Of a stretch of 64,000 bases of DNA, positions 39,178-41,632 are shown piece by piece. The DNA is taken from NCBI GenBank assembly GCA_002050365.1, contig MWYZ01000054.1:62001-126000 (forward strand). Reading direction: 5' to 3'. The translations under genes and the position numbers were made by a program. Under the pieces are notes generated by a model. It was not told the origin of the DNA. It worked only from the letters and a program-made list of their open reading frames with translations, and did no database searches. Numbering within the stretch: position 1 is the stretch's first letter; every line of letters begins with the position of its first letter. The stretch is from Acidobacteria bacterium 28-1. GTDB lineage: Bacteria; Acidobacteriota; Blastocatellia; Pyrinomonadales; Pyrinomonadaceae.

Positions 39178-39615
39178 ATGATGACGCAAGCAGCAACGGA
39201 AACTGAAACAACCGAAAATCAAATTAACGAAACGAAAACCGATTTGCGCTCGATCCGCGAAATCGTCAAAGATTTGTCAAAGCCGATTGCTCAAAAGCAT
39301 CTCCGCAAACGTCGGCAAGGCGGCAAGGAAATAACTTATCTGGCGTGGCACGACGCGGTAAAATATCTTGACCATTTTGCGCCCGGTTGGTGTTATGAAA
39401 TTCGCTCGATTGATTCGGTTGCCGGAAAATTGATTTTAACCGTCAGGCTTTCCATTCCAAGTTTGGAAGGCGTCATTTATCGGGAAGCGACTGGACAGGA
39501 AGACGAAGATTTGGAAAGCTATGGAAATTCATCGAGCAACGCGGAATCTATGGCTCTGCGCCGCGCCGCTGCGAAATTTGGTTTGGGATTGTCGCTTTAC
39601 GACCAAAATAAATAA
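39178..39615 (+). CDS. Rad52-like single-strand annealing protein (orphan)
   Basis: 145 residues. After a Thr/Glu-rich tail, KEITYLAWHDAVKYLDHFAPGWCYEI and the final SSNAESMALRRAAAKFGLGLSLYD match the core of Rad52/Rad22- and DUF1071/Sak-type single-strand annealing proteins, which are usually phage-borne and anneal ssDNA. Here it stands alone in a chromosomal setting without phage genes. It is shorter than typical Rad52 cores (about 180), so assignment is by motif pattern, not by full fold. Confidence 0.68.
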   Translation: MMTQAATETETTENQINETKTDLRSIREIVKDLSKPIAQKHLRKRRQGGKEITYLAWHDAVKYLDHFAPGWCYEIRSIDSVAGKLILTVRLSIPSLEGVIYREATGQEDEDLESYGNSSSNAESMALRRAAAKFGLGLSLYDQNK

Positions 39616-39647: not shown

Positions 39648-39693
39648 TTAATTTTTCTTCGCCACAATCACAATCGAAACGCCGAACGGTAAA
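39648..39693 (-). pseudogene. Displaced 3' end of the methyltransferase gene
   Basis: On the minus strand this reads KFNLPFGVSIVIVAKKN and a stop. The intact methyltransferase 0.7 kb away ends DFPFGVSIVIVAKKTKQTDGL. Twenty-nine bases are identical (39661-39689 with 40405-40433). It is a vestige of the same gene end, left on the far side of the VapBC genes. Confidence 0.85.
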
Positions 39694-40107
39694 TTAAATT
39701 TCCCAATCTTCAATTTTGAGATTTCTGATTCGGCTGAATTCTTTCGTGTTGTGGGTTACTAAAGTCAAATCGTTTGCCAAAGCAATCGCGGCAATTTGCA
39801 AATCGTATGCGCCGATGAGCGTTCCTTTGCTTGCTAAATCAGCGCGAATTTCGCCGAAAATCAAAGCCGCTTCGTCATCGAAAGGCAATGACTGAAATTG
39901 TTTGAAAAACTTTTGTTGAATTGCTAAAGAATCGCCTTGATTTTGGCTTTTCATTGAGCCGTAAAACATCTCCGCCTTAACGATTGAACAAACGGCAATT
40001 TCGGATTTCGGCAGTAATTCGAGTTTACGCCTTACGCCTGATTGAGAATTTTTGATATAGACGATGCAAGCGTTTGTATCGAGTAAGTATTTCAACAAAT
40101 AAATCAT
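39694..40107 (-). CDS. vapC: VapC-family PIN toxin
   Basis: 137-residue PIN-domain ribonuclease toxin. Motif 1 YLLDTNACIVYIKN has the first Asp, SIVKAEMFYGSMKS the conserved Glu, and IGAYDLQIAAIALANDLTLVTHNTKEFSRI the C-terminal Asp cluster. Its ATG overlaps the antitoxin stop as ATGA (40104-40107), the usual vapBC coupling. It is inside the cassette bounded by methyltransferase 3'-end repeats. Confidence 0.92.
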   Translation of the reverse strand: MIYLLKYLLDTNACIVYIKNSQSGVRRKLELLPKSEIAVCSIVKAEMFYGSMKSQNQGDSLAIQQKFFKQFQSLPFDDEAALIFGEIRADLASKGTLIGAYDLQIAAIALANDLTLVTHNTKEFSRIRNLKIEDWEI

Positions 40108-40349
40108 TCGATTTCTTCTCTGACATCAAACGGCGGCTGCGGCTCACGTTCTGGAAAATCGGGCAAACTTCCCGCCGTTTCTTCAAAAAACCCGATTGGA
40201 TAACCGTTTGCGTCAACTTCAACTGCGCCGCCGTTTTCCGGTTCTTCATCTAACGGAAGTATAATTATCTCGACATCGCGGTTTCTCATTTCCTTCGGAA
40301 TCGAAATTACGGACGGCGCGTTTTTAATAGTTTCACGATAAAAATTCAT
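40104..40349 (-). CDS. vapB: VapB-like antitoxin
   Basis: 81 residues. N-terminal part SVISIPKEMRNRDVEIIILPLDEE is of the kind found in small VapB/DUF2281 antitoxins; the acidic, Pro-rich tail (LPDFPEREPQPPFDVREEIE) would wrap the toxin. GGAG ribosome site 9 bases upstream of ATG 40349. First gene of the vapBC pair. Confidence 0.82.
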   Translation of the reverse strand: MNFYRETIKNAPSVISIPKEMRNRDVEIIILPLDEEPENGGAVEVDANGYPIGFFEETAGSLPDFPEREPQPPFDVREEIE

Positions 40350-40373
40350 TTTTTGTAAATCTCCTTCAGTTGA

Positions 40374-41147
40374 TTACAAACCGTCTGTTTGTTTTGTCTT
40401 CTTTGCCACAATCACAATCGAAACGCCGAACGGGAAATCGAAATTTTTGAGCCAGAATCTTTCCGCGCCAAAGAGTTTGCCGAACACGCCGTTGAGCGCG
40501 GAGACGTTGACGTTATTTTCCGATTCGGGTTTGATTCCGGTTAGTTTCATCAAAGTTCTGCCACCCAAAATCGGCGCGAAAAAAGAGATGTTTGCATAAG
40601 TCGCCCGCTCGATTTCAAAACCGGCTTTTTCTAACCTTTCGACTATTTGTTTTTTCGTGTAGCGAATTCGATGATTTGAAACGTCATCCTGCACGCCCCA
40701 GAGCCACATAAAGGCGGGAACGAAAATCAGCGTTCTGCCACCCGTTTTAAGAACGCGATTCATTTCTTTCAAACCCGCTACATCGTCGTCTAAATGTTCG
40801 ATGACATCGAGCGCAGTTACAACGTTAAAACTTTCATCTTCAAACGGAAGTTTTTCCGCCAAACCTTTATGAACTCTCAGACCCTTTGATTTACAAAATT
40901 CGAGCGCGTCGTCGGAAACATCAACGCCTTCCGCCACGCCGAATTTCTCCAGCATTTCCAAATTGCCGCCCGTTCCGCAACCCACATCCAAAATTCTCGG
41001 ATTTTCGATTTTCGATTTCTGAATTATTCCTTCAAGAAAACTTTCCAAAATCGCACGCCGACCGACATACCACCAGTGCGAATCTTCGACGCGATTCATA
41101 ATCGCGTAGGTGTGCTGCTGCATTTCTTTCGAGAGTGTTTGGCTCAT
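40374..41147 (-). CDS. Class I SAM-dependent methyltransferase
   Basis: 257 residues from ATG 41147 (a GTG four codons upstream is possible). SAM motif ILDVGCGTGGNLEML (about 48-62), then NVVTALDVIEHLDDDVAGLKEMNRVLKTGGR as motifs II-III. The N-terminal DSHWWYVGRRAIL pattern is often seen in methyltransferases of polysaccharide or lipid clusters. Substrate unknown. Its last 10-15 codons are duplicated downstream at 39648-39693 across the vapBC genes. Confidence 0.88.
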   Translation of the reverse strand: MSQTLSKEMQQHTYAIMNRVEDSHWWYVGRRAILESFLEGIIQKSKIENPRILDVGCGTGGNLEMLEKFGVAEGVDVSDDALEFCKSKGLRVHKGLAEKLPFEDESFNVVTALDVIEHLDDDVAGLKEMNRVLKTGGRTLIFVPAFMWLWGVQDDVSNHRIRYTKKQIVERLEKAGFEIERATYANISFFAPILGGRTLMKLTGIKPESENNVNVSALNGVFGKLFGAERFWLKNFDFPFGVSIVIVAKKTKQTDGL

Positions 41148-41150
41148 AAC

Positions 41151-41632
41151 TTTTTTCACCGCAGAGACGCGGAGACGCAGAGAAATTTTATAAATTATTT
41201 ACTATTCTTTTCAAACCGCTTTTTAGAATCGGAACGTGAAAATTTATCAAAAGACCAATTTTCTTATCGTAGAGTTTCAAATATGATAAAAGCTGAGCTT
41301 CGTGAACGGGCAAAATTCTTTCGACGGCTTTTAATTCCACAATAACTAAATTTTCAACAACAACGTCTATTCGATAACCGCAATCAAGTTTAACGCCTTT
41401 ATAAATCACGGGTAAAGGAACTTGGCTGTCAAATTCGAATTTGTTTTGAGTCAATTCAAAACATAAACATTCTTCATAAGCCGATTCTAAAAGTCCGGGA
41501 CCCAAACCACGATGAACCGAAATTGCACAACCGATAATTTTTTCAGTTATCTGATTTATCTTTTGATTTACGGGATTTTCCTCAAACATTCTCTAAAATC
41601 CTCTGCGCCTTTGCGTCTCTGCGGTGAAAAAA
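41151..41632. mobile_element. GxxExxY gene cassette with terminal inverted repeats
   Basis: A 482-bp unit with matching ends: left ttttttcaccgcagagacgc (41151-41170), right the exact reverse complement gcgtctctgcggtgaaaaaa (41613-41632). Beyond these 20 bp the ends stay similar (gcagag blocks). The only gene inside is the GxxExxY protein. No transposase, so it would be moved in trans if mobile. It sits tightly between methyltransferase start and nuclease stop. Confidence 0.7.
41188..41589 (-). CDS. GxxExxY protein
   Basis: 133-residue member of the GxxExxY family. The name-giving motif is GLGPGLLESAYEECL (about 30-44). YRIDVVVENLVIVELKAVERILPVHEAQLLSYLKL carries the D-(x)n-E-x-K arrangement of PD-(D/E)XK nuclease folds. 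Function not established; a nuclease-like role is inferred from the fold. It forms the sole cargo of the cassette with inverted ends. Confidence 0.9.
   Translation of the reverse strand: MFEENPVNQKINQITEKIIGCAISVHRGLGPGLLESAYEECLCFELTQNKFEFDSQVPLPVIYKGVKLDCGYRIDVVVENLVIVELKAVERILPVHEAQLLSYLKLYDKKIGLLINFHVPILKSGLKRIVNNL

Follow-up and report, generated by a model that had tools for sequence, protein, structure and literature searches.

A vapBC module bracketed by duplicated methyltransferase gene ends, and similar duplications at other toxin-antitoxin loci in the Pyrinomonadaceae

In the 64,000 nt stretch of the Acidobacteria bacterium 28-1 genome analysed here (the window; contig MWYZ01000054.1, positions 62,001 to 126,000), a vapBC toxin-antitoxin (TA) pair lies behind a SAM-dependent methyltransferase (MT) gene, between two copies of that gene's 3' end. 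We read this structure as one example of the scars left where TA pairs settle at gene ends across the family. The explanation to which we give roughly even odds is that the module came in together with a donor-derived gene end, one side being joined by homologous and the other by illegitimate recombination, and that the native end stayed behind as a vestige.

The methyltransferase-vapBC locus

The features of the locus are as follows.

39178..39615, + strand: Rad52/22-like gene, the conserved, convergent neighbour on the outer flank (PF04098, 3.8e-10)
39655..39701 (core 39661-39689), - strand: outer copy of the direct repeat, a putative vestigial or displaced native MT 3' end
39694..40107, - strand: vapC toxin gene, PIN domain (PF01850), tRNA(fMet)-specific endonuclease family, apparently intact
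40104..40349, - strand: vapB-type antitoxin gene (ORF, 81 aa), with relatives only beside the MT gene in genomes G069 and G054
40374..41159, - strand: SAM-dependent MT gene (ORF; Pfam Methyltransf_11, 1.9e-20)
40399..40445 (core 40405-40433), - strand: inner copy of the direct repeat, the gene-attached MT 3' end

The two small genes overlap by 4 nt, with vapB (40349-40104) directly upstream of vapC (40107-39694). VapC matched Pfam PF01850 (2.4e-15) and scored above the cut-off of NF047863, the model of the tRNA(fMet)-specific endonuclease family; it also matched VapC structures in the PDB, among them 6ifc (E 3.4e-27). No Pfam or NCBIfam model matched VapB, the gene for which is conserved together with the toxin in G069 and G054. 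With both a PIN toxin and an overlapping upstream antitoxin gene, the pair is, as judged from its sequence, a VapBC type II TA system. These two genes are all that lies between the repeats, with no integrase or other recombinase, as the initial annotation had remarked, and a scan for promoters and terminators gave nothing above the expectation from shuffled sequence.

The same annotation described 29 identical bases in direct orientation on either side of vapBC (39661-39689 and 40405-40433). These are indeed present, embedded in a longer match of 47 nt at 89% identity (39655-39701 and 40399-40445); the copies are 744 bp apart, and the outer one extends over the final vapC codon together with its stop. 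The repeated sequence corresponds to the conserved terminus of MT family members, and flanking repeat pairs of comparable score, at a spacing of 600-1000 bp, are rare, occurring in 0.5% of 7410 control windows drawn from 864 kb of this genome, the locus included; hence the repeat pair is not attributable to chance. An assembly artefact was also considered and rejected, since the two copies differ and the structure is present in independent species.

On the - strand, the inner copy forms the C terminus of the MT, ending ...FDFPFGVSIVIVAKKTKQTDGL before the stop codon: it reads FDFPFGVSIVIVAKK followed by the non-homologous residues TKQTDGL and a stop, the MT gene continuing into AKKTKQTDGL. The outer copy still encodes an MT tail, as originally claimed, and reads ...NLPFGVSIVIVAKKN to its stop codon. 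Orthologous MTs terminate no more than a few residues from the conserved FPFGVSIVVVA(K/R)K, that of G031 ending AKKN, as does the outer copy, and joining the flanks over the 29 bp core gives a product ending ...NFDFPFGVSIVIVAKKN and a stop. From this product and the G031-like terminus, the outer copy most simply represents the native MT end; the additional seven residues at the inner copy would derive from the module side. Four of the six differences in the outer copy are in common with G001; sliding identity along the MT gene gave no clear breakpoint.

Orthologues of the MT gene, comparison with which makes a start at 41147 more likely, were present in 94 of 119 family genomes, and in most of these nothing occupies the position of vapBC and the single tail is uninterrupted. 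They include four genomes of the same genus, with MT genes 83-90% identical to that in the window and no vapBC behind them, such that the empty sites the initial annotation had proposed looking for do exist. The Rad52/22-like neighbour is also found near the MT gene in G006 and G008. The history weighed there against insertion, a tandem MT duplication and subsequent deletion, with vapBC in between, agrees with the outer copy being a piece of that gene, yet a second full MT gene in tandem was found in none of the 94 genomes with the gene, and the like arrangement at pgk, transketolase, ftsY and other genes (see below) would be left unexplained. Already disfavoured, it was rejected on the lack of tandem pairs, and we regard it as very improbable. 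On the other side of the MT gene, a GxxExxY (PD-(D/E)XK) gene lies between 38 nt inverted repeats that are 87% complementary (41151-41632); the gap between the nuclease gene and the MT gene in G006 and G002 is around 30-80 bp and contains no GxxExxY gene, hence this looks like a separate small insertion.

Duplicated gene ends at other toxin-antitoxin loci

PIN-domain (vapC-type) loci in nine genomes of the genus were surveyed for direct repeats on both sides, a locus being counted as bracketed at a spacing of 600-1000 bp and a score of at least 16. This was so for 13 of the 79 other loci with enough flanking sequence, against 1.7% of 7410 windows across 864 kb of the window's genome (TA loci among them); at a score of 30, the figures were 9 of 79 and 0.5%. 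The rate at vapC-type loci is around ten times that of the control windows, which overlap one another, hence no p value is given. The duplicated stretches, with repeats of 18-177 nt, are the termini of unrelated genes (where a gene had no Pfam match, its name was assigned by reading the translation).

L225: duplicated 3' end of pgk
L208: duplicated 3' end of the transketolase gene
L224: duplicated 3' end of ftsY
L227, L175 and L178: duplicated 3' ends of Type ISP and Eco57I-like restriction-modification genes
L130: duplicated 3' end of a glycosylase gene
L185: duplicated 3' end of a PD40-like protein gene
L180 and L228: duplicated 5' ends of an amidohydrolase gene
L146: duplicated 5' end of an amine oxidase-like flavoprotein gene
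L204: duplicated 5' end of a DUF427-like gene
L251: duplicated 5' end of dnaG

Repeat copies in these sister loci are mostly 88-100% identical, and the gene terminus almost always lies inside the duplication. Wherever a 3' end is duplicated around a PIN toxin (ten cases, counting that in the window), the TA pair is on the strand of the host gene. No core or att sequence is common to the sister insertions, which use unrelated gene ends. Bracketing repeats were also present at seven of another 41 PIN loci, almost all in other genera, which were inspected in part. Five loci bracketed by paralogous genes or simple repeats (L154, L264, L266, L231 and L252) were not counted as support, and two with retropepsin-like paralogues (L205 and L237) were set aside as ambiguous.

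Several related arrangements were encountered. At L178 (1860-3502, G000:C9), three copies of the restriction-modification 3' end surround two different PIN-type TA pairs, which suggests two successive insertions at one gene end. An 81 nt aldehyde dehydrogenase 3' end is duplicated, at a spacing of 486 bp, around a HicB-like ORF with no Pfam match (L260, 7526-8092, G000:C92). At L239 (7467-9531, G000:C39), a 32-38 nt stretch is present three times, bracketing an HNH-endonuclease unit and a Uma2-family gene, such that the pattern may not be confined to classical TA pairs. Five copies of a 26-49 nt motif (CCGCGTTTCAAAAATTGCCCGTCGCC) lie around a MazF-type toxin gene at L258 (14007-17650, G000:C92), and L245 (16827-18854, G000:C61) contains a near-perfect head-to-tail duplication of about 1,010 bp, which is either real or an assembly artefact.

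Toxin lineages found repeatedly at one gene end

Close relatives of both vapB and vapC were detected in only three of the 119 genomes: that of the window, G069 (ACE_ACI2) and G054 (MGR_bin254). In the latter two, which belong to another genus, vapBC is directly behind the same MT gene, the stop of which is normal, with no second tail; the toxin gene of G054 is decayed. The initial annotation had also proposed looking for the cassette at other sites; its close relatives lay only at this gene, in three genomes of two genera. A search with vapB gave no match in viral contigs or plasmids; among genome contigs it matched only G069, G054 and one Chloroflexi sequence (41% identity), and further matches in 396 genomes of the phylum were weak only. 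Whilst VapC of G069 ends DWE, that in the window ends DWEI, and the extra codon and stop lie inside the outer tail copy, which places the junction at the last codon of vapC. The AT-rich GGGAAATTTAA at the end of vapC, set against AAAATTTTAA in orthologous MT ends, hints at a possible short micro-homology at this junction.

The ftsY-linked toxin behaves similarly: five of its seven family relatives are directly behind ftsY, in genera g1, g19, g22 and g28, with a vestige of the ftsY end recognised in G002 only. A relative of the pgk-linked toxin in G066, from another genus, is also behind pgk, the end of which is again duplicated; other relatives of this toxin are located elsewhere. The G066 locus (L270, G066:C17) has the order pgk, TA pair, pgk tail vestige, second TA pair, tpiA, with two TA pairs thus stacked inside a cluster of glycolytic genes.

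Identity among the modules hardly differs within and between genera. VapB sequences are 71% identical within genus g22 and 70-71% across genera, against 83% and 78% for the MT; the ftsY-linked VapC sequences are 70% identical within the genus and 56-69% across, against 93% and 83-85% for ftsY. Since TA divergence within genera is as large as between them, repeated transfer to the same gene end fits these comparisons of short proteins better than simple descent. It might instead be supposed that vapBC is an old inhabitant of the site, vertically inherited and lost from most lineages, the tail copy being a later local duplication by template switching, unrelated to insertion. Occupation of the same site in two genera, the decayed toxin of G054 and the lack of the tail copy from both relatives would suit such a history; it would, however, require losses in nearly all of the 94 genomes and leave unexplained the TA divergence without genus signal, the loss of the stop from the inner rather than the outer MT copy, and the same scar around many unrelated TA modules. 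We consider it improbable.

The G002 ftsY vestige agrees with the ftsY gene of G000 at all four synonymous sites where the vestige differs from the ftsY of G002 itself. Alongside the agreement of the outer MT copy with G001, this suggests that the gene-attached tail and the vestige are different natural alleles in both the ftsY and MT cases. Across 16 repeat pairs there were 27 synonymous and 21 non-synonymous differences, figures that do not separate decay from donor tails.

Origin of the structure and its relation to known systems

In the scheme we favour, vapBC would form a compact TA unit associated with a core gene's 3' end, entering on DNA from a relative with the same vapBC behind the same MT gene. 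Donors with such one-sided homology are plausible in view of G069 and G054; the donor and the direction of transfer are inferred, and none of the genomes showed an intermediate structure that would mark it as a donor. Host homologous recombination within the conserved MT 3' end would have provided the anchor on one side, such that the gene would now have a donor-type tail followed by vapBC. On the other side, the join may have been illegitimate, within the MT end of the recipient and at the final vapC codon, so that the native end with its stop persisted as the outer copy. A circle with the MT tail and vapBC, integrated by a single crossover, would yield the same product. Either enzymology would keep the MT gene whole, with vapBC probably read as its downstream cistron by co-transcription, and recombination between the repeats could subsequently delete the module. 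Several further observations count against this scheme: the identical 29 bp core also fits a simple duplication of one sequence, the MT gene shows no breakpoint, the substitution counts do not distinguish donor tails from decay, and several TA loci are at genes with no known second example.

The initial annotation had likened the structure to an integrative element that enters a gene's 3' end and brings a replacement. The 3'-end site, the empty sites and the native-looking outer end stand; a self-contained 744 bp integrative element is not supported, given the repeat-free module in G069 and G054 and the unrelated modules bracketed by unrelated gene ends of 18-177 nt. The 29 bp core with its diverging flanks does resemble attL and attR sites, and the gene end is preserved, as in elements that enter and restore a gene 3' end and so leave a direct repeat around the insert. 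Unlike these, the present structure has no integrase and no fixed core, spans only 744 bp and has many unrelated sister targets of variable repeat length. Site-specific integration with the integrase supplied in trans is therefore already disfavoured, and very unlikely. The repeat-free copies in G069 and G054, and unrelated TA modules similarly bracketed, point to a general recombination route rather than a dedicated integration system.

Insertion with a long, variable target duplication, in which the TA pair is joined into a staggered or replicating target and around 18-177 bp is duplicated, would let gene-end insertions survive because the duplication preserves the whole gene. It accommodates the variable repeat length, the unrelated targets, the differing TA families, the mostly 88-100% identity of the copies and the position of the gene terminus within the duplicated part, and insertions of this kind, with duplications of the order of 100 bp, are published for restriction-modification systems (Nobusato 2000; Furuta 2010, via PMC3874152 and PMC3031569; the length from PMC3874152). 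Such systems are likewise small addiction-type modules with no transposase, long variable direct target repeats and empty sites in relatives. The cases described here differ from those accounts in involving type II TA modules and repeats that are gene termini, with the same TA lineage recurring at the same gene end across genera, sometimes with no repeat. Neither this recurrence nor copies resembling different alleles is explained by target duplication, and such fidelity to one gene favours one-sided recombination or a circle crossover over random insertion; we hold target duplication to be possible but doubtful.

Precedents exist for the individual steps of one-sided recombination. In E. coli experiments, single crossovers duplicated 109-950 bp of a target gene end, although deletion of target DNA is the usual outcome of classical one-sided recombination (PMC3240628); the MT-vapBC locus would share the single homologous anchor with this homology-facilitated illegitimate recombination or single-crossover integration, but is a natural case with short duplications rather than a laboratory plasmid construct. 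In the Vibrio cholerae T6SS effector-immunity arrays, displaced 3' ends are attributed to one-sided recombination (PMC5361080). There too the module is anchored in a conserved gene part, the old 3' end is displaced downstream and repeated insertions produce arrays; however, that anchor belongs to the effector gene of the module itself, whereas here it is an unrelated core gene. The ParDE-type TA linked to MaOC1 in Microcystis similarly lies downstream of a gene between direct repeats, but these are intergenic, 152 bp long and have inverted repeats, with no duplicated gene end (PMC7935541). The structure in the window is a variation on known processes, homology-facilitated illegitimate recombination and insertion with a long target duplication. 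No earlier description of the gene-end pattern for TA modules was found in partial coverage of the literature, and its generalisation to them is likely, though not proven, to be new.

Tentatively, and at somewhat lower confidence than for the locus itself, the type II TA modules of the family might be viewed as integrase-free cassettes, each tied to one gene terminus (as for MT, ftsY and pgk) and spreading between species by host homologous recombination there, with the duplicated ends as one-sided scars. The pattern bears on how small chromosomal TA modules move without integrases or transposons. Should gene-end scars record such moves, genomes would reveal the direction, route and relative age by which TA pairs were acquired. 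The proposal that recombination in adjacent core genes carries TA pairs between genomes would then be directly testable and, if true, would explain their occurrence as downstream cistrons of housekeeping genes.
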